Below, one piece after another: positions 4,614 to 13,745 of a DNA stretch of 64,000 nt. The notes beneath the pieces were generated by a model. That model had not been told where the DNA came from. It did not search any database and saw nothing but the letters and a program-made list of their open reading frames with translations. A program made the translations under genes and the position numbers. Source of the stretch: Streptomyces cellostaticus (GTDB lineage Bacteria; Actinomycetota; Actinomycetes; Streptomycetales; Streptomycetaceae). Every line of letters begins with the position of its first letter. Within the stretch, counting starts at the first letter, position 1. The stretch is taken from assembly GCF_023630175.1 (NCBI RefSeq), contig NZ_JALLIN010000006.1:124001-188000 (forward strand), read 5' to 3'.

Positions 4614-5372
4614 CTAGCCGAGCAGGGCGAGCGCTTCGTCGAGCAGCCGCCGCAGCCTGAGCGCGTCGGGGGCGAGGGCGCTGACGAGCACCGCCGGTCC
4701 GGCGAGCGGCATCAGCGCGGCGCACTCCCCCAGGGAGCGCGCTGCGGGCGGCGCCTCCGCGAACTCGGGCCGTACCACGATCAGTTGCCCCAGGGACCGG
4801 TGTCCGCCGAGGACTGCGGGGCCGTCCCAGCCGCCCGGTGCTCCGGGCCCGCAGCTCAGCTCCTGGTCCAGCAGGGTCCGGCCGGCCAGCCGCACGGTGA
4901 GACGGCTGGTCAGCCGTCCCGGTTCCTCCCCGGCCCGCCCGAGCACCTGCTCCTCACGCAGCACGAGCCGTGCTCCGGGGGCGAGTTCGGCCCGGGTGCG
5001 GACGCGCAGGTCGCTGCCGTCCGCGGAGATGAGCTGCTCCGGCAGCCAGTTGAGCTCAGCGCCCCCGGCCACGTCGAGCTCCACGTCGTACCGCGCCTCA
5101 CCCTTGTGCTGGCCGGGCAACGCGATCGTGGCGGCGGCCGAACCGACGTGCAGCCGGGCGCCCTCGGCCACCTCGGCGCGCAGCCGGAGGTGGTCGCCGC
5201 CGAGCGGGCCGCTCATCGCGCCGACGACCATCACCCGTGCCTCGTCGCCCCGGGCCCGGACCCGGCGCAGAGCGAGCGGACCCGCACCGTCCAGCACGGG
5301 CAGGGCGGTGCCGCCCCGTCCGTCGCCCCGCGCGACGATCCGCGCCCGCGCCCGGACCCCGGCCGCCGTCAC
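4614..5372 (-). CDS. ureD: Urease accessory protein UreD (UreH)
   Basis: Scaffold that, with UreF and UreG, forms the complex delivering nickel to apo-urease. Length is 252 aa, usual for actinobacterial UreD. It is mostly beta-strand and has a [10 protein letters not shown] segment and the LNWLPEQLI motif typical of the family. I chose the GTG at 5372, which overlaps the ureG stop as GTGA; an in-frame start 33 bases earlier would lie deep inside ureG. It is the last gene of the minus-strand operon ureABCFGD. Confidence 0.92.
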
Positions 5373-6046
5373 GCCGTCCACGCGGCCAGCCGTCCCCGCA
5401 CCCACGCGGCCACGTCCGAGACTCCCGAGTCGCCTCGCAACGACTGCAGGATCACCGGGAGTTCGGCCCGCTGCGCCTTGGCGTCGGCGGCCATCCCCGC
5501 CAGGTCGGAACCGACGTACGGCGCCAGGTCGGTCTTGTTGACGACGAGCAGGTCGGCGGTGGTGACGCCGGGTCCGCCCTTGCGCGGGATGTCGTCGCCG
5601 CCGGCCACGTCGATGACGAAGATCTGCGCGTCGACGAGTCCTCTGGAGAAGGTGGCGGTGAGGTTGTCCCCGCCGGACTCCACGAGGATGAGGTCCAGTG
5701 GCCCGACCGCGTCCTCCAGGTCCTCCACCGCCTCGAGGTTGGCGGAGATGTCGTCGCGGATCGCGGTGTGCGGGCAGGCACCCGTCTCCACGGCCGTGAT
5801 CCGCTCGGGCGGCAGCACGGCCTCCCGGAGCAGGAACTCGGCGTCCTCACGGGTGTAGATGTCGTTGGTGACGACGGCCAGGGACAGCTCCTCGCGCAGG
5901 GCCCGGCAGAGCGCGGCGACGGTGGCGGTCTTCCCGGACCCGACGGGACCGCCGAGCCCGATGCGCAGGGCGCGCCGGGCGCCGTCGGGACGGTGGGCGT
6001 CGGCGCTCACGGCGGCGGGGCCGTGGTGGGTGTGGTCGAGGTGCAT
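5369..6046 (-). CDS. ureG: Urease accessory GTPase UreG
   Basis: Nickel-binding SIMIBI GTPase that powers nickel insertion into urease. The P-loop is GPVGSGKT, the metal site is the conserved CPHTAIRDD motif, and NKTD is the guanine-specificity motif. [12 protein letters not shown] and [16 protein letters not shown] are further UreG signatures. The N-terminus carries a short His-rich stretch (HLDHTHHG) that could store nickel. An 83-bp gap separates it from ureF, the largest gap in the operon. Confidence 0.96.
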
Positions 6047-6129
6047 GAACGGCTCCTGTCTGGGATGCCTTGGCCCAGGGGTGGTGTCCCCGGTGGGCGG
6101 CAGGTGTCATGGCGGGGGGTGAGGGTTCC

Positions 6130-6804
6130 TCAGGACGCGAACAGCCGCACGGGCCAGGCCGCGTGCCACTCGGCACCGGCCTCGAGCAGCGGTCCCGACC
6201 CGGCCGGCAGCGCGTCGACCCCGTCGTCGGGCACGCTCCGCGCGGCGGCCACCGCCCGGTCCACGACCCGGTCCAGCTCCGGTGCCAGTCGCGCCAGCAC
6301 CCCGGTCGCGTCGAACGGGTCGAGGCTCAGCAGCCGCACCGCCGCAGTCGCCGGCCCGCTGACGCTCTCGTACACCGCGCAGTGCGCCGCGTCCGCGGGT
6401 TCGAGACCGGCGGCCCGGGCGGCCAGGCCGAGCACGACCGGCTGGTGCGCGCCCTTGGGGAACTCCCGGGCCAGCAGGTCGAGTTCCTCGCAGGGCCAGC
6501 AGGTCCGGGCGGCCCGGAGCAACTGCCGCCCCAGCCGCCGTGCGGTCGCTCGCAAGGCGGGTGACGGCGTGCGGGCGTCCGCGGCCGCGTCCAGCTCCCG
6601 CGGCTCGAGACCCAGCACGGCGGCCGCCGCGAGCGCGCCCGCGACCAGCCCGGCGGTGTGCAGCCGCCCGCGGCAGAAGTCCTCCAGGTCTGCGGCGGAG
6701 CTGATCCGTCCCGCCTTGACGGCGGCCTCCGCCCCGCCCGAGTGCGCGTGCCCTCCGGCGGGGAACCGGCCGTCGGCCAGGACGAGCAGTGCTGCCCTGG
6801 TCAT
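6130..6804 (-). CDS. ureF: Urease accessory protein UreF
   Basis: All-helical accessory protein that couples UreG GTP hydrolysis to nickel delivery in the UreDFG complex. At 224 aa it is the normal length. The N-terminal LLVLADGRFPAGGHAHSGG is the UreF signature (DxxxPxGxxxHSxG). Its ATG overlaps the ureC stop by one base (TGATG), so the two are translationally coupled. Confidence 0.93.
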   Translation of the reverse strand: MTRAALLVLADGRFPAGGHAHSGGAEAAVKAGRISSAADLEDFCRGRLHTAGLVAGALAAAAVLGLEPRELDAAADARTPSPALRATARRLGRQLLRAARTCWPCEELDLLAREFPKGAHQPVVLGLAARAAGLEPADAAHCAVYESVSGPATAAVRLLSLDPFDATGVLARLAPELDRVVDRAVAAARSVPDDGVDALPAGSGPLLEAGAEWHAAWPVRLFAS

Positions 6805-8525
6805 CAGAAGAGGAAGTAGCGTTGGGCCATGGGCAGTTCGGCGGCCGGTACCGCCTCGACCAGCTCACCGTCGATGTGCACGGCGAAACTGTCCGGGTCG
6901 ACCCGCACCCGCGGTCGCGCGTCGTTCTCCCGCATGTCGGCCTTGGTGACCGACCGCGTCGATTCGATGGCGACGAACCGCTTGCCGAGCCCGAGGCGCT
7001 CCGGCAGCCCGTCCTCGACGGCGAGCGGTGCCACGAAGTTGAACGAGTTCCCGGCCGGAGCCCGTCCGATCGCCCCGTACATCGGCCGGGGCAGGACCGG
7101 CTGCGGGGTGGGGATGGAGGCGTTGGCGTCGCCCATCTGGGCGTACGCGATCTGGCCGCCCTTGATGACGAGGAGCGGCTTGACACCGAAGAACGCGGGC
7201 TCCCACAGCACCAGGTCGGCCAGCTTGCCGGTCTCCACCGACCCGATCTCCCGGGCCAGCCCCTGGGCGAGCGCCGGATTGATCGTGTACTTGGCGACGT
7301 AGCGCCGGACCCGGTGGTTGTCCGCCCGGTCGTCGCCGGGCAGCGCGCCGCGCCGCCGCTTCATGACATGGGCGGTCTGCCAGGTGCGCAGGACGACCTC
7401 GCCGACCCGGCCCATGGCCTGCGAGTCCGAGGAGATGATGGAGATCGCCCCCAGGTCGTGCAGGACGTCCTCGGCACCGATGGTGGACGGCCGGATGCGG
7501 GACTCGGCGAAGGCCAGGTCCTCCGGGACCGCCGGGTTCAGGTGGTGGCAGACCATCAGCATGTCGAGGTGTTCCTCGGCGGTGTTGACGGTGAAGGGCC
7601 GGGTCGGGTTCGTCGAGCTGGGCAGCACGTGCGGCTCGGAGACGACCGTCATGATGTCCGGCGCGTGCCCGCCGCCCGCGCCCTCGGTGTGGTAGGCGTG
7701 GATGCCCCGTCCGGCGATCGCGGCGAGCGTGTCGCCGACGAACCCGGCCTCGTTCAGGGTGTCGGTGTGGATCGCGACCTGGATGCCGGTCCGGTCGGCC
7801 ACGGTGAGGGAGGCGTCGATGACGGCCGGGGTGGAGCCCCAGTCCTCGTGCAGTTTGAGCCCCAGGGCACCGCCGCGGATCTGGGAGAGCATCGCCTCGT
7901 GCGAGACCGTGTTGCCCTTGCCCAGCAGGCCGATGTTGAGCGGGTACTGCTCCATCGCCGCGAGCATCCGGGCCAGGTGCCAGGGGCCGGGCGTCACGGT
8001 GGTCGCCTTCGAGCCCTCGGCGGGGCCGGTGCCGCCGCCGACCAGGGTGGTGATGCCCGCGGCCAGCGCCTCGTCGGCGATCTGCGGGCAGATGAAATGC
8101 ACGTGGGCGTCGATGGCGCCCGCCGTGAGGATCCGCCCGTTGCCCGCGATGACCTCGGTCTCCGGACCGATCACCAGGTCGGGGTGGACGCCGTCCATGG
8201 TGTCCGGGTTGCCGGCCTTGCCGATACCGGTGATCCGGCCGTCGCGGATGCCGACGTCGGCCTTGACGATGCCCCAGTGGTCGATGACGACGACCCCGGT
8301 GATGACGGTGTCGGGGGTGCCCTCGGCGCGGGTGGCCCGGGACTGGCCCATGGACTCGCGGATGACCTTGCCGCCGCCGAAGACCGCCTCGTCCCCGGCG
8401 AGCCCGGGCCCGCCGCAGCGGTCCTCCTCGATCTCGATCAGCAGGTCGGTGTCGGCGAGGCGGATGCGGTCGCCGGTGGTCGGGCCGAACAGGTCGGTGT
8501 ACGCGGCGCGGGAGATCTCAGGCAT
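6804..8525 (-). CDS. ureC: Urease alpha subunit UreC
   Basis: Catalytic subunit that hydrolyses urea to ammonia and carbamate at a dinickel centre in the cytoplasm. The metal ligands are visible: HVHFICPQ (HxH), the carbamylated Lys in GLKLHEDWG, and HTDTLNE and [12 protein letters not shown] as His ligands. The mobile flap is [13 protein letters not shown] with the conserved Cys-His. Length is 573 aa. I chose ATG 8525 ([12 protein letters not shown]) because GGAGGTG lies 6 bases upstream; a GTG nine bases earlier is less likely. The start overlaps ureB by 8 bp. Confidence 0.97.
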
Positions 8526-8829
8526 CCAGGGCACCTCCGGTCTCCCCGCGCAGTCCGGGCACGATCCGGGCGCCGGCCAGGGGCACGAGTTCCACGTCGA
8601 CGGGGATGCCCGGCTCGAAGCGCACGGCGGTGCCGGCGGCGACGTTCAGCCGCTTGCCGTGCGCGGCGGCGCGGTCGAACCGCAGACCGGGATTGGCCTC
8701 GGCGAAGTGGTAGTGGGAGCCGACCTGGACCGGCCGGTCGGCGGCGTTGAGGACGATGAGGCGGGTGACCTCGCGGCCCTCGTTGCAGACGACGGGGCCG
8801 TCCGCGAACAGGATCTCTCCGGGAATCAT
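8518..8829 (-). CDS. ureB: Urease beta subunit UreB
   Basis: Structural subunit of the (alpha-beta-gamma)3 urease, 103 aa. It starts [14 protein letters not shown] and has the [18 protein letters not shown] core and the [12 protein letters not shown]-like turn (here [12 protein letters not shown]) typical of UreB. It is a separate gene here, not fused to ureA. It lies between ureA (11 bp gap) and ureC (8 bp overlap). Confidence 0.96.
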
Positions 8830-8840
8830 CGCGCCCTCCC

Positions 8841-9143
8841 TCAGACGATCGGCTCGTGCACGGTGACGAGCTTGGTGCCGTCCGGGAAAGTGGCCTCGAC
8901 CTGGACGTCGTGGATCATCTCCGGGATGCCGTCCATGACGTCGTCCCTGGTGAGGAGCTTGCGACCGGACGACATCAGCTCGGCGACGGTACGGCCGTCC
9001 CGCGCGCCCTCGAGGATGTGCGACGTGATGAGGGCGATGGCCTCGGGGTGGTTCAGCCGCAGTCCGCGGCCCCGGCGCCTCTCGGCCACGTCGGCCGCCA
9101 CATGGATCAGCAGCCGCTCTTGCTCGTGCGGGGTCAGTTGCAC
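8841..9143 (-). CDS. ureA: Urease gamma subunit UreA
   Basis: First gene of the urease operon, 100 aa. The start is GTG 9143 ([20 protein letters not shown]), preceded by GAGGTGGGAC as ribosome site; a longer frame upstream lacks family similarity. The [20 protein letters not shown] and LVTVHEPI segments are family signatures. Urease supplies ammonium from urea, so nitrogen control is expected (see the GlnR-like box upstream). Confidence 0.96.
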
Positions 9144-9300
9144 GTCCCACCTCACAGTCCTCGCTCCGGACCGTGCGGGGTCCGGTTGCCGCAGCCACCG
9201 CGACGGGGACAGATGTAACACACAGACAAATTGCCCCGATGGTGATCAACGCGGGCAGAAAAACCCCTGGTGGCGTGGATCGGCAGGCTAGTTCGCCGGA

Positions 9301-9316
9301 GTTTCAGCGACGTTAA
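9301..9316 (-). promoter_or_regulatory. Possible GlnR box half-site upstream of ureA
   Basis: Read on the minus strand this is TTAAC, six bases, GAAAC. The GlnR consensus in Streptomyces is gTnAC-n6-GaAAC, so 9 of 10 defined positions agree. It lies about 160 bp before the ureA start. GlnR control of urease is established in the genus; this particular site is my inference. A second a/b half-site pair at the proper spacing is weak. The rest of 9144-9451 shows no gene. Confidence 0.4.
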
Positions 9317-9362
9317 CCAGCCCTTGGCCGACCCATGACGCCTCGATGGACTCCCCCATGCA

Positions 9363-9393
9363 CGGGTGCCGGGCGGGGACCGCCCGGCACCCG
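9363..9393. terminator. Strong hairpin between ureA and phd regions
   Basis: CGGGTGCCGGGCGG, loop GGA, CCGCCCGGCACCCG: a perfect 14-bp GC stem. It lies about 60 bp past the stop of the minus-strand antitoxin gene and is best read as its terminator. There is no U-tract, as is common in Streptomyces. Confidence 0.7.
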
Positions 9394-9451
9394 GCGGATC
9401 GGGCCGCGGACGAGCGGCGGCACGCGTCCGCGGCGTGGCCCCGGAAAGCCC

Positions 9452-9730
9452 TCAGGAGACGCCGGGCCCGCGGTGCTCGGCGGCGATACCGAAGCGCTGC
9501 CGCTCCCGGGCCGCCGGCGCGGGCTCCCGCACCTGGGAGACGGAGCCGGCGATCCCCTCCTCGGCCACCTCCTCGAGGGCGTCGAGGCGTTCGAGGTCGA
9601 CGGCCGAGACCAGGGCGACGAGGGGCTTGCCGTGCCGGGTCACGACGACGCGCTCACCGCCGTACACCACCCGGTTGATCAGGTCGGCGAACTCAGCCCT
9701 GGCTTGCGTCACCGGAATCTCGTAGGCCAT
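9452..9730 (-). CDS. Phd/YefM-family antitoxin, apparently orphan
   Basis: Type II antitoxin-like protein of 92 aa. The N-terminal DNA-binding fold is clear: [19 protein letters not shown] followed by [17 protein letters not shown], the PhdYeFM signature. The C-terminal part, which usually wraps the toxin, is Arg/Ala/Glu-rich with no recognisable homology. No RelE, Doc or YoeB toxin gene lies on either side; the next minus-strand gene is ureA. It probably autoregulates through the TGTACA operator just upstream, and may also control the divergent ClpP-like gene. Confidence 0.85.
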
Positions 9731-9748
9731 GCCCCCATCATAACGTCA

Positions 9749-9773
9749 CGTACTTCCTGTACATTTTGTACAG
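9749..9773. promoter_or_regulatory. YefM-type operator with two TGTACA hexamers
   Basis: CTGTACATTTTGTACAG at 9757-9773 is a perfect 6-5-6 inverted repeat containing two TGTACA hexamers (9758-9763 and 9767-9772). A third, degenerate CGTACT lies at 9749-9754, so three GTAC cores recur every 9 bp. TGTACA is the established core of YefM-YoeB operators in E. coli. It lies 19-43 bp upstream of the antitoxin ATG and 44-68 bp upstream of the ClpP-like ATG, in the shared divergent promoter. Confidence 0.75.
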
Positions 9774-9816
9774 AAGCGAGGCCGCCGGAGGTCTCGCCGT
9801 GAGGAGGGGTACGTCC

Positions 9817-10455
9817 ATGGCACGACCGTCAGCCCGTCACGTCCTGCCCGAGTTCACCGAGCGTGCGAGTACGGGTGGGCACCGCACGCTCGATCCCCAC
9901 TCGAAGCTCTTCGAGAGCCGGATCGTCTTCCTCGGAACCCCCCTGGACGACACCGCGGCGACCGATGTGATCACCCAGTTCATGCACCTCGAACACGCCG
10001 CGCCGGACCGGCGCATCACGCTGTACCTCAACTGCCCGGGCGGCTCCTTCGACGCCATGACGGCCGTGTACGACACGATGCGCTACGTCGGCTGCGACGT
10101 GGAGACCTACTGCCTGGGCCAGGCCGCCGGCACCGCGGCGGTCCTGCTCGCGGCCGGCGCCCCGGGCCGTCGCTTCATCCTGCCCGGGGCGCGGGTGGTG
10201 CTCGAGCAGCCCGCGCTGCCCGAGCCCGCCCGGGGACAGCCGAGCGACCTCCTCATCCGGGCCGGGGAGCTGAACCGGACACGGGCGCTGATGGAGGGGA
10301 TGCTCGTCCGGCACACCGGGCGCACGCCGGAGCAGGTCGGCCAGGACCTGGAGCGGGACCTGGTGCTGGACGCGCCGGGTGCGCTGGCGTACGGCCTGGT
10401 GGACGGCGTGGTCCCGAGCCGCGGGGCCGGCCCCGGCGCCGAGCGGGCGGAGTGA
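9817..10455 (+). CDS. ClpP-like protein lacking catalytic Ser and His
   Basis: 212 aa with the ClpP fold. [37 protein letters not shown] and YGLVDGVV all align to ClpP. Where ClpP has GMAASMGAFLL the sequence is [11 protein letters not shown], so the nucleophile Ser is Gly105. Where ClpP has RIMIHQP it is RVVLEQP, so the catalytic His is Glu130. The acidic residue in ERDLVL is kept. It is therefore probably not a peptidase by itself, but could join mixed ClpP rings. ATG 9817 follows AGGAGGGG at good spacing; a longer frame from 9766 overlaps the operator. The small gene at 10463 follows within 8 bp. Confidence 0.85.
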
Positions 10456-10462
10456 CCCGCCG

Positions 10463-10771
10463 ATGCTGCCGCCGGAGCTTCCACCGCTGCCCGCGCTGAC
10501 CAGGGCCGAGGGCGAGCTGATCGACCGTTATCTGGAGGCGGCCGACCTGCTGGGCCGGATCAACCCGGCGCGGCCGGGAGACACCTACAGCGGGCTGCGC
10601 GCGGCGCAGGCCCTGGTGCGCAAGGCGGCCGAGCTGCGCGACGCGCTCGCCCTGATGCACCGGCGGGGCGAGACGGAGCTGCACGGGGACACGCTGGCAC
10701 GGGCCCTGCGGGTGCTCGACGGTGAGCGCCGCACCGCGCGCGTCGTGCTCCCGCCCGACTGCGTGGGCTGA
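10463..10771 (+). CDS. Small hypothetical protein co-transcribed with the ClpP-like gene
   Basis: 102 aa, charged and largely helical, with no signal peptide or membrane segment. It starts MLPPELPPLPALTRAEGELI, 7 bases after the ClpP-like stop, and ends before a strong terminator, so the two form a short operon. Predicted helices around residues 13-28, 43-67 and 75-90 suggest a helical bundle. No family is recognised. A role as adaptor or ring partner is a guess from position only. Confidence 0.75.
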   Translation: MLPPELPPLPALTRAEGELIDRYLEAADLLGRINPARPGDTYSGLRAAQALVRKAAELRDALALMHRRGETELHGDTLARALRVLDGERRTARVVLPPDCVG

Positions 10772-10786
10772 CCCGGACGCCGAGTG

Positions 10787-10829
10787 CCGCGCCGGGTGGA
10801 CCTCGCCGTCGACGGTCCGCCCGGCGCGG
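10787..10829 (+). terminator. Rho-independent-type terminator
   Basis: CCGCGCCGGGTGGACC at 10787-10802 pairs with GGTCCGCCCGGCGCGG at 10814-10829 through an 11-base loop: 16 pairs, one of them G-U. It ends the ClpP-like operon. A second, weaker stem with a run of six T lies near 10875-10885. Confidence 0.85.
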
Positions 10830-11109
10830 AGTTGAAACGACCCGAACGACGGACCCCCGGCCGGCGTATCTCCGGGCCTTTTTTCCGACTCCCCGACTTG
10901 CGCGATCGGCCCGGCCGGGATCCACGTGGCGGTGCTTCGCCCCAGGTCCGGAGCTACGCGCGGAAGTTGACGGTGCCTCGAACAGAGCACTGTCCACCCG
11001 AACGGGTGAGTGGTGAGTAACGCCACAAATCCTCGGTTCCGTTGGGATTTTCGGACACCTGTGAGTGAAGATCCCTGTCTGACGACAAGCCCCCGCCACC
11101 GCGGTGGGG

Positions 11110-12650: not shown

Positions 12651-13511
12651 ATGCAGAACGGTCCCGCGGTGCGGCGCCGCAAGCTGGGTGCCGAACTGCG
12701 CGCGCTGCGCACCGGGGCCGGGCTCACCAGTGGCGAGGCGGCCCTGCTGGTGGGCTGGCACCAGTCGAAGGTGAGCCGCATCGAGACCGGCGCCAGCGGG
12801 GTGAGACCGGCCGACGTGCGGTTGCTCCTCGACGCCTACGACGTCCGGGACCGGCAACTGCGCGACATGCTGCTGATGTTGAGCGGATCGGCGGACACGG
12901 GCGGACGCAACCGCTGGTGGCACGCCTACCGGGGCGTCCTGCCGCCGACCTACCGCGACTTCATCAGCCTGGAGTCGCAGGCGAGCCGGATGCGCACCCT
13001 GGAGACCACGGTGGTTCCCGGCCTGCTGCAGACGTCCGAATACGCTCGCGCGGTGACCCGGGCGGCGGTGGAGGGGGTGGCCGAGGAACGGCTGGACGCC
13101 CTGGTGGAGGTGCGGCTGGCGAGGCAGGACGTGCTCCGGTCCGAACCGCCGCTGGAGCTGACCGCGGTACTGGACGAGGCGGTGCTCAGGCGCGAGGTGG
13201 GTGGCCCCGAGGTGATGGCGCGGCAACTGGAGCGGCTGGTGGAGGCCGCACGGCTGCCCCAAGTACGGCTCCAGGTCCTGCCGTTCACGGCGGGGGCGCA
13301 TGTCGGCCTCACCGGGCCTTTCGTTATCTTCTCATTTCCGAGCACTTCTGATCTGGACGTGGTTGTTCTCGACCAGTTGACGAGTAGCCTCTATCTGGAA
13401 CGGAAAGAAGACCTCATGGCCTACGCCGAGGCCTTCGACACCCTTCAGTTCCACGCCCTTTCACCCGAGGAATCGTTGGACTACATCGCCGGGATAGGTG
13501 ACGGCGCGTAA
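12651..13511 (+). CDS. XRE-family HTH regulator with DUF5753 (WhiJ-like)
   Basis: 286 aa. An N-terminal helix-turn-helix occupies residues about 10-65 (LRTGAGLTSGEAALLVGWHQSKVSRIE). A DUF5753 domain fills the remainder, with VVPGLLQTSEYARAV and RQDVL near the middle and VTGPF-like LTGPFVIFSFPS near the end. Such proteins are often paired with a DUF397 protein that modulates them. AAGGAG lies 6 bases before the ATG. The DUF397 gene follows after 9 bp. Confidence 0.92.
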   Translation: MQNGPAVRRRKLGAELRALRTGAGLTSGEAALLVGWHQSKVSRIETGASGVRPADVRLLLDAYDVRDRQLRDMLLMLSGSADTGGRNRWWHAYRGVLPPTYRDFISLESQASRMRTLETTVVPGLLQTSEYARAVTRAAVEGVAEERLDALVEVRLARQDVLRSEPPLELTAVLDEAVLRREVGGPEVMARQLERLVEAARLPQVRLQVLPFTAGAHVGLTGPFVIFSFPSTSDLDVVVLDQLTSSLYLERKEDLMAYAEAFDTLQFHALSPEESLDYIAGIGDGA

Positions 13512-13520
13512 GGAGGCACC

Positions 13521-13745
13521 ATGACAGCTCTGCCTCGGAACGTCCCAGCCAGTACCGACCTGCACGACGTGCTGTGGCTGCGCAGCAGCCACAGCACCGG
13601 AGCGAACAACTGCGTGGAGACGGCCCGGCCGCGCTCCGGCCCGTGGGCCGGACTGCTCGCCGTGCGCGACTCCAAGGCCCCGGCCCGACCCGCGCTGCTC
13701 TTCTCCCCCGGGAGCTGGGCGGGCTTCGTCGCCACGCTCCGGTGA
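13521..13745 (+). CDS. DUF397 domain small protein
   Basis: 74 aa. LWLRSSHSTGANNCVETA and LLAVRDSKAPARPALLFSPG are the two DUF397 signatures (S.SGG..CVEVA and VRDSK.P.GP.L.F). The family partners the upstream HTH-DUF5753 protein; in S. coelicolor such pairs affect development. AAGGAGG overlaps the preceding stop region and gives a strong ribosome site. Confidence 0.92.
   Translation: MTALPRNVPASTDLHDVLWLRSSHSTGANNCVETARPRSGPWAGLLAVRDSKAPARPALLFSPGSWAGFVATLR

Follow-up and report, generated by a model that had tools for sequence, protein, structure and literature searches.

Why would a streptomycete retain a ClpP-fold protein in which two residues of the catalytic triad have been replaced? 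The question is raised by a gene in a 64,000 nt stretch of the Streptomyces cellostaticus genome (contig NZ_JALLIN010000006.1, positions 124,001 to 188,000), here called the window. We propose, with moderate confidence, that its product, ClpP5, is an accessory subunit of the ClpP2 type that selection keeps for a structural and not a catalytic job, that it contributes a noncatalytic ring or docking face together with ClpP1, and that its operon is probably repressed by a YefM-like protein. In the sequences compared, the ClpP5 triad has been lost many times, and most reading frames, the oxyanion motif, and one ATPase-docking tyrosine have been kept; across genomes, the gene is co-inherited with a 102-residue partner, a Phd/YefM-type gene, and a 25 bp element. 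This pattern suggests that the job of ClpP5 is shaping the Clp protease, not cutting.

The window gene encodes a ClpP2-type paralog with two catalytic residues replaced

9817 to 10455, plus strand: clpP5, ClpP2-type paralog of 212 amino acids (Ser to Gly105, His to Glu130, Asp181 kept)
10129 to 10131, plus strand: GGC codon of Gly105, at the catalytic Ser position
10204 to 10206, plus strand: GAG codon of Glu130, at the catalytic His position
10357 to 10359, plus strand: GAC codon of Asp181, at the catalytic Asp position, unchanged

The window protein matches the Pfam profile CLP_protease (PF00574) at 8e-56 (189 bits; cutoff, 20.2). Its nearest solved relatives are mycobacterial ClpP2 proteins, with Mycobacterium tuberculosis ClpP2 (5dzk) matched at 1.5e-61. 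Because GQAAG aligns with GQAAS and VVLEQP with VLIHQP of 5dzk, Gly105 occupies the serine site and Glu130 the histidine site; the PGG motif and Asp181 are retained, and the Ser-His-Asp triad is incomplete. With these two replacements, the protein has the ClpP fold and is, by sequence, no active ClpP peptidase. In an AlphaFold2 model built from a 55-row alignment, most of the core exceeds pLDDT 90, and residues 1–26 at the N terminus are unordered. By VIA-align, the model superposes on 6nah_A (Z 28.9, 1.1 Å, 175 residues) and on M. tuberculosis ClpP2 4u0g_D (Z 28.7, 1.6 Å, 182 residues, 50% identity). An initial annotation, made from the letters of the window, had proposed that both catalytic residues are gone and that the fold is kept; the alignment to the Ser and His of M. 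tuberculosis ClpP2 bears out the former, and the Pfam match and the Z score to a solved ClpP bear out the latter.

The window ClpP is 51% identical to the ClpP2 of its own genome. In a tree with other ClpPs, the ClpP5 sequences form a clade (98/97) on the ClpP2 side, divided from ClpP1/P3 at 100/100, a split at which the tree program flagged long branches meeting. Judged from alignment and tree, the window ClpP is a ClpP2-type paralog. The ClpP2 proteins of Streptomyces and M. tuberculosis are members of peptidase family S14.

Residues S94, Y96, and Y116 of the Streptomyces ClpP2 pocket are required for ClpX, ClpC1, and ClpC2 (PMC9765437). At the aromatic positions, the window protein has Tyr70 (Y96, Streptomyces hawaiiensis numbering) and Tyr90 (Y116); at the S94 equivalent it has Thr68, where 91 of 125 family members have Ser. 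Tyr70 is present in 124/125 sequences of the family, and Tyr or Phe at position 90 in 118/126. No clpP1-type gene adjoins clpP5 in the window, and the clpP5 match stands isolated in the other genomes checked as well.

According to the portion of PMC9765437 consulted, streptomycetes mostly have three or five ClpPs, and clpP5 of Streptomyces lividans is a single gene outside two pairs. In line with the three-or-five statement, 3 or 5 PF00574 matches occur in 141 of the 161 genomes that carry the partner described below. Because ClpP1P2 and ClpP3P4 are accounted for, we assign the window gene, by elimination from published descriptions, to the ClpP5 of the literature. The two are alike in being ClpPs additional to ClpP1P2 and ClpP3P4. 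They differ in that the S. lividans gene is called monocistronic (same portion of PMC9765437), whereas a partner follows 4 to 12 bp downstream of the clpP5 studied here in 122 of 128 loci; that portion also makes no mention of triad loss in the S. lividans protein. SCO1230, considered as a candidate for clpP5, was ruled out, as PMC3276577 gives it as a possible secreted tripeptidyl aminopeptidase.

ClpP5 is co-inherited with a small helical partner

10463 to 10771, plus strand: helical partner of 102 amino acids, without known family, 7 bases past the clpP5 stop codon

The AlphaFold2 model of the partner is of moderate confidence (mean pLDDT 71.9) and all helical, with helices at residues 14 to 32, 41 to 67, and 75 to 93. 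Searches against Pfam, NCBIfam, PHROGs, PADLOC, a PDB sequence profile, and Foldseek gave no significant match. The best VIA-align superposition (Z 8.5) covers 60 residues of a helical hairpin, a resemblance that reflects a common arrangement and no more; PA28, which appeared in Foldseek at E 3.4, was counted as chance.

The partner was detected in 161 of 199 Streptomyces genomes, and a same-strand ClpP gene lies directly upstream in 128 of the 130 loci examined, at a spacing of 4 to 12 bp in 122. Both counts argue that the partner reading frame is not a chance one. These loci come from 130 of the 161 partner genomes (30 + 100), the 31 left out including most of the weakest matches. The initial annotation had described a helical protein of 102 residues within 8 bp of the ClpP gene; its helical character is predicted here too, and it proves to be a co-inherited operon mate, with a gap of 7 bp. 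Of the 80 named loci closest by partner, 79 are from Streptomyces, with a top identity of 98%. The partner is more conserved than ClpP5 itself (43/102 positions invariant among 27 diverse members).

Because each partner search scored only 24 (genus) or 12 (class) first-look candidates per genome, the absence of the partner from a genome is soft evidence; a ClpP search backs it in 20 of the 38 partner-less genomes. Nineteen of these 20 had no ClpP5-like match, in favor of the proposed module. These 19 hold 2 or 4 full ClpP matches, at most 54% identical to the window ClpP (one, G050, has a weak fifth), which fits ClpP1/P2 with or without ClpP3/P4. The remaining genome, G010, has a ClpP5-like gene without the partner, which counts against it; ClpP5 was told from other ClpPs here by identity to the window ClpP, 62% in G010 and at most 54% in the others. 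Over all 199 genomes, the partner-less ones have 2 (21 genomes), 4 (13), 5 (3), or 3 (1) PF00574 matches, the names of 18 of the 38 having been worked out from gaps in the list, and the partner genomes have 3 (70), 5 (71), 4 (18), 6 (1), or 7 (1).

Co-inheritance is incomplete in ways that weigh against the proposed role. ClpP5 is absent in about a fifth of Streptomyces and partial, odd, or decayed at five loci (L028, L073, L085, L088, and L097). At L085/L309 and L088/L310, the partner is intact and ClpP5 is missing or in pieces; the 25 bp element is kept in L085/L309 and lost in L088/L310.

The catalytic triad has been lost repeatedly

The complete Ser-His-Asp triad is present in 52 of 128 aligned ClpP5 rows, with the window counted once. 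Ser is kept in 95/127 (otherwise Ala 20, Gly 7, Pro 3, Thr 2), His in 63/127 (otherwise Arg 22, Gln 21, Glu 10, Ser 8, Asp 2, Thr 1), and Asp in 112/126. The initial annotation had held that homologs mostly keeping both Ser and His would make this a case of simple decay; the pair is kept jointly in just 54/127, which does not bear this out, although Ser by itself is kept in 95/127. It had also asked about conservation of Gly105 and Glu130, and no such signature exists: five residues, including Ser, occur at the one site and seven, including His, at the other. Since each site carries several different residues, there is no fixed new chemistry, and we discarded the idea that Gly and Glu form a new active site.

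Other ClpPs of the genus served as controls, and the comparison favors the structural reading. The triad is complete in 50/50 Streptomyces sequences of the ClpP1-type GMA/GLA motif, in 5/5 with a GFA motif, and in 48/56 of the GQA-motif class, the other eight being the window protein, the ClpP5 of G010, and six ClpP4-like sequences. ClpP2 keeps the triad in the sampled genomes, as do the ClpP1- and ClpP3-type controls. Among the 80 named loci, a sample biased toward close kin of the window, 78 have a ClpP; of the 77 that have letters at the triad sites, 21 show the complete triad.

On the best tree, the triad state changes at least 14 times, and well-supported branches force 6 changes, which again favors a noncatalytic role; with regain disallowed and a midpoint root, there are 17 losses. 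This was a quick tree of 127 rows with the three catalytic columns removed and 36 of 124 forks open; L073, a fragment, was excluded from it, and L046, without an Asp column, from the triad labels. The window falls in an entirely broken clade of 15 species (98 SH-aLRT, quick tree), in further support, whose members show the states GED, AED, SED, SEE, AEE, SSD, STD, AQD, and SRD; a second clade, of 28 species, is also wholly broken (support 96). Because sequences with the full triad sit at the unresolved base of the ClpP5 clade (98/97), the ancestor of ClpP5 was probably catalytic. As read from these alignments, the triad state reflects loss of constraint on catalysis; it amounts neither to a single episode of decay nor to a new active site that became fixed.

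A tie between the broken triad and missing ClpP3P4 was considered and found unsupported once relatedness was allowed for, the independent pairs being nonsignificant and under-powered. The raw association, which ignores kinship, is 44 broken and 8 full at 3 ClpP matches against 27 and 40 at 5 or more (Fisher 8e-7), in a 2 × 2 table of raw PF00574 match counts that omits 7 loci of 4-match genomes.

Broken copies remain under purifying selection

Median dN/dS is 0.415 for pairs of broken ClpP5 sequences, which evolve faster than intact pairs (0.331), a point against the structural reading; for the partner, it is 0.25 for either triad state. These are Nei-Gojobori values for all pairs at pS 0.10 to 0.55, overlapping and non-independent, with a broken-pair range of 0.126 to 0.875. 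Because this method is biased at high G+C, we simulated neutral evolution of the window gene to similar divergence and obtained a median dN/dS of 1.21 (5–95%, 0.89–1.6), in support of that reading. The reading frame stayed open in 32 of 300 neutral runs and gained a stop in 268.

Within the broken rows, position 130 exceeds 93% of core positions in variability, and the oxyanion residues P74-G75-G76 and Tyr70 are nearly invariant. Tyr70 is present in 73/73 broken sequences with a letter there, in keeping with a retained docking function. Against such a function, the other docking positions, 68 and 90, have entropy ranks (0.76 and 0.73) close to that of the Ser site (0.78), and median core entropy is 0.80 in broken versus 0.41 in full sequences. 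Taken together, the dN/dS and entropy patterns indicate that selection holds the protein and not the catalytic machinery, with some relaxation. The broken copies, pooled, are by these measures under purifying selection. The initial annotation's reading of a possible noncatalytic ring or ring-capping module that would alter Clp specificity is supported in part, for the lost residues, the kept fold, and the operon mate; purifying selection speaks against simple decay, which stays as a rival.

A divergent YefM-like gene and a GTAC-repeat element accompany clpP5

9452 to 9730, minus strand: Phd/YefM-type antitoxin-like gene, 92 amino acids (PF02604), divergent from clpP5; proposed repressor
9750 to 9774, plus strand: 25 bp element GTAC-N5-GTAC-N5-GTAC, beginning 67 bp upstream of the clpP5 start codon; proposed operator

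The initial annotation overlooked both of these parts of the module. The YefM-like protein matches PF02604 at 7.2e-13 (48.6 bits; cutoff, 29.8). Counting the window, 100 of the 128 loci have a divergent homolog at most 700 bp away. R11 and R32 are invariant in every one of these (101 rows, as the window appears twice), in favor of a DNA-binding role. From their xxAR and TRxG contexts, we take R11 and R32 to be the likely equivalents of R10 and R31 of Escherichia coli YefM. Whole-genome searches of 25 of the 28 genomes lacking the nearby gene, and of 5 with it, gave an ortholog of at least 71% identity in 29/30. Among 18 partner-less genomes, an ortholog occurs only in G010 (74%), which has ClpP5; the other 17 reach at most 44%. 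The gene is flanked in the window by clpP5 and by urease gamma (8841 to 9221, minus strand; Pfam), and no toxin is found among window reading frames of at least 70 amino acids. Urease genes adjoin the module at 5369 to 9221 on the minus strand, gamma being assigned by Pfam and the rest from translations. Farther downstream of the module are an HTH_31/DUF5753 regulator (12651 to 13511, plus strand) and a DUF397 protein (13521 to 13745, plus strand). Conservation of the YefM-like protein extends beyond its DNA-binding domain into a C-terminal tail (RFGIAAEHR-like), possibly a degron or partner-binding peptide.

The 25 bp element has the consensus GTACGTCCTGTACATTTTTTACAGA and scores at least 19/25 in 128 of 130 loci of the genus and at least 20 in 80/80 named loci, against a reverse-strand maximum of 16. 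With up to 3 mismatches allowed, its own genome has one copy. A genome-wide search at the same tolerance places it in 146 of the 161 partner genomes, as a single copy except in G189, and in 2 of 38 others; these two are G010 and G038, the latter with 3 mismatches, as in the two control hits, in G059 and G168. The gene and the element thus share the distribution of the partner and ClpP5, in support of a common module. Departures are found at L028 (G172), which has no YefM-like ortholog, a truncated ClpP5, and no element, and at L088/L310 (G170), where ClpP5 and the YefM-like gene survive just as pieces.

YefM proteins bind TGTACA cores, spaced 12 bp in E. coli, and depend on two arginines, R10 and R31 (PMC7730913 and PMC4803016, from the portions consulted). 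In the window, the GTAC sites are spaced 9 bp; the TGTACA core is present and paired 12 bp TGTACA palindromes are not, which counts against binding of this kind. Scans of 9300 to 11100 for a sigma-70 promoter and an intrinsic terminator found none.

The module and its partner outside Streptomyces

A search of 394 genomes of the class with the partner profile found the genus of the window and six genomes in two other families. In one of these (G625, another actinobacterial family), a YefM-like gene (60.5 bits) diverges from a ClpP2-type gene with a complete triad, followed by the partner, an arrangement that favors the proposed module. The intergenic region there reads GTACAGACT-GTACAACTT-TTACGTTCT-GTAC, with repeats spaced 9 bp, and the C-terminal tail of the YefM-like protein is partly shared (RRFGIA, IAAEHR). 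An AU test did not reject a single clade of the G625 ClpP, ClpP5, and G010 (p 0.63). G625 is the only genome outside Streptomyces with the full module, 1 of 35 in its family, which weighs against the reading; in two further genomes of that family, the partner matched only in part, and the stretch read contained no ClpP.

Four of the 120 genomes of family f19 carry the partner (L341, L343, L344, and L347), in each case with no ClpP or YefM-like match within 1.5 to 2 kb on each side. Because the partner stands there without a nearby ClpP, it may also act outside ClpP5, a further point against the reading. Within Streptomyces, a partner paralog (46–48% identity) follows a ClpP2 duplicate with an intact triad at L304, L305, and L306 (G064, G225, and G016), without the YefM-like gene or the 25 bp element. 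The loci compared thus show the partner paired with a ClpP2-type ClpP three separate times, and also alone.

A proposed structural role for ClpP5 and its alternatives

In reconstituted Streptomyces ClpP1P2, catalysis comes from ClpP1, and ClpP2-S131A is fully active (PMC9765437). A ClpP2-type paralog can therefore drop its triad and stay useful. In the structural role that we favor, heptameric rings of ClpP5 would stack on catalytic ClpP1, replacing ClpP2 or mixed with it, so that the active sites would come from ClpP1, and ClpP5 would offer an alternative face for docking or gating. The partner, encoded in the same operon, may bind the ClpP5 ring as an assembly factor, cap, or adaptor, and the YefM-like protein would bind the GTAC repeats and repress the clpP5-partner operon. 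YefM antitoxins are protease-labile, so such a switch could read protease activity and adjust the supply of ClpP5, by analogy with ClgR and PopR. The likely order of events is a catalytic module first, as in G625 and part of Streptomyces, with catalysis becoming dispensable later. One observation may weigh against the structural role: for Streptomyces cattleya, co-expression in E. coli of ClpX and an apparently unpaired ClpP (ClpP3, SCATT_03550), a possible ClpP5 ortholog, shortened the half-life of RelB (PMC4989188, portion consulted).

A more specific version of the mechanism seems doubtful to us. There, the repressor would itself be a Clp substrate that senses Clp capacity through the single operator; its destruction would release a dead ClpP2-type ring and the partner, the ring would replace ClpP2 on ClpP1 and redirect or throttle ATPases and substrates, and the partner would read the repressor tail. 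Such a switch, if real, would be a bacterial counterpart of plastid ClpPR/ClpT of independent origin, with catalysis lost repeatedly.

A competing account is slow decay, in which ClpP5 is nearly redundant, drift begins at its catalytic residues, and the gene is being lost. The several residues at each catalytic site, the higher dN/dS and more variable core of broken copies, and the absence or decay of ClpP5 in part of the genus are all as it predicts. Yet every member of two clades (15 and 28 species) is broken, dN/dS lies far below the neutral simulation, in which most runs gained a stop, the partner is equally constrained whatever the triad, and the YefM-like gene and element remain conserved; we consider decay unlikely. 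An improbable alternative, to our minds, is that ClpP5 forms its own homomeric, nonproteolytic ring (a holdase, gate, or sink) that competes for ClpX/ClpC and lowers Clp activity, capped by the partner. The retained docking tyrosine, the lack of an adjoining clpP1-type gene, and the dedicated partner would suit it, but ClpP2-type subunits of Streptomyces and mycobacteria act as heteromers with the ClpP1 type (PMC9765437; PMC4673316, portion consulted).

Two further accounts turn on the YefM-like gene. It could be a mere neighbor, with the element serving as a promoter or another regulator's site, a view that concerns this one part and is compatible with any other reading. The 9 bp spacing speaks for it, as does the position of the gene more than 700 bp off or its absence in 28/128 loci, with the element kept in all of these except L028. 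We nevertheless find it rather unlikely, since 24 of 25 such genomes have an ortholog farther away, some just past 700 bp, gene and element are both lost in G172 with its truncated ClpP5, and the gene and GTAC repeats recur jointly in G625. Alternatively, the locus might derive from a toxin–antitoxin system, in which the YefM-like protein both neutralizes (through contacts of its C-terminal tail) and represses a clpP5-partner effector pair, perhaps in a stress or phage response. A Phd/YefM domain above the Pfam cutoff, a C-terminal motif shared in part with G625, and the tight co-inheritance are in keeping with this origin; it is very improbable, however, given that the YefM-like gene is divergent and not co-operonic, that PADLOC gives no match for any of the three proteins, and that the partner has no toxin-like family.

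Relation to known Clp subunits and regulators

ClpP5 resembles ClpP2 in fold, in sequence (~50% identity), in the docking tyrosine, and in lying on the same side of the tree, and the serine of ClpP2 is dispensable in the Streptomyces ClpP1P2 heteromer (PMC9765437). It differs in that the triad is gone from over half of the loci and that the gene stands away from clpP1, with the partner and a YefM-type neighbor. ClpR of cyanobacteria, plastids, and apicoplasts is a ClpP fold without the triad that occurs in mixed cores with catalytic ClpP (PMC4673316 and PMC7966870, portions consulted). Like ClpR, the window ClpP5 is a ClpP homolog without the triad, lacking Ser and His and retaining Asp. In contrast to ClpR, it is nearest to actinobacterial ClpP2, shows many losses within one genus in which intact orthologs persist, and would form a heteromer by inference. 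Plastid ClpT comprises small accessory proteins associated with a core that contains dead ClpP subunits (PMC7966870, portion consulted); likeness of the partner to ClpT is a functional analogy only, by description; the searches gave the partner no relatives with a known function. With YefM/Axe repressors, the YefM-like protein shares PF02604, the conserved arginines, and a TGTACA-type core in the control region; the differences are that no toxin is seen beside the window gene among reading frames of at least 70 amino acids, that it diverges from clpP5, and that the GTAC spacing is 9 bp and not 12 bp.

Dead ClpP subunits are thus already known from ClpR, and the degenerate ClpP5 with a partner and a YefM-type regulator appears to be new: the open-access literature consulted has in the portions seen no report of a degenerate ClpP5, of the partner, or of a YefM-type clpP regulator. 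The module offers a testable reason for the persistence of a fifth ClpP, namely a structural subunit with optional catalysis, a small partner, and a probable dedicated repressor with its operator. Repeated natural active-site losses within one genus, beside intact orthologs, also form a comparative set for the origin of pseudoenzymes. Clp is the target of the ADEP antibiotics, which Streptomyces makes, so an alternative ring subunit would matter for self-protection and drug action.

The six ClpP4-like genes of the GQA-motif class (L265–L270, in six genomes; e.g., L268, 1486 to 2100, plus strand) have Gly in place of the catalytic His in 6/6, with the triad S-G-D in five and S-G-E in one. Within the clpP3-clpP4 pair, ClpP4 is the member of the ClpP2 type, and with this replacement, it too looks noncatalytic, which points in the same direction as ClpP5.
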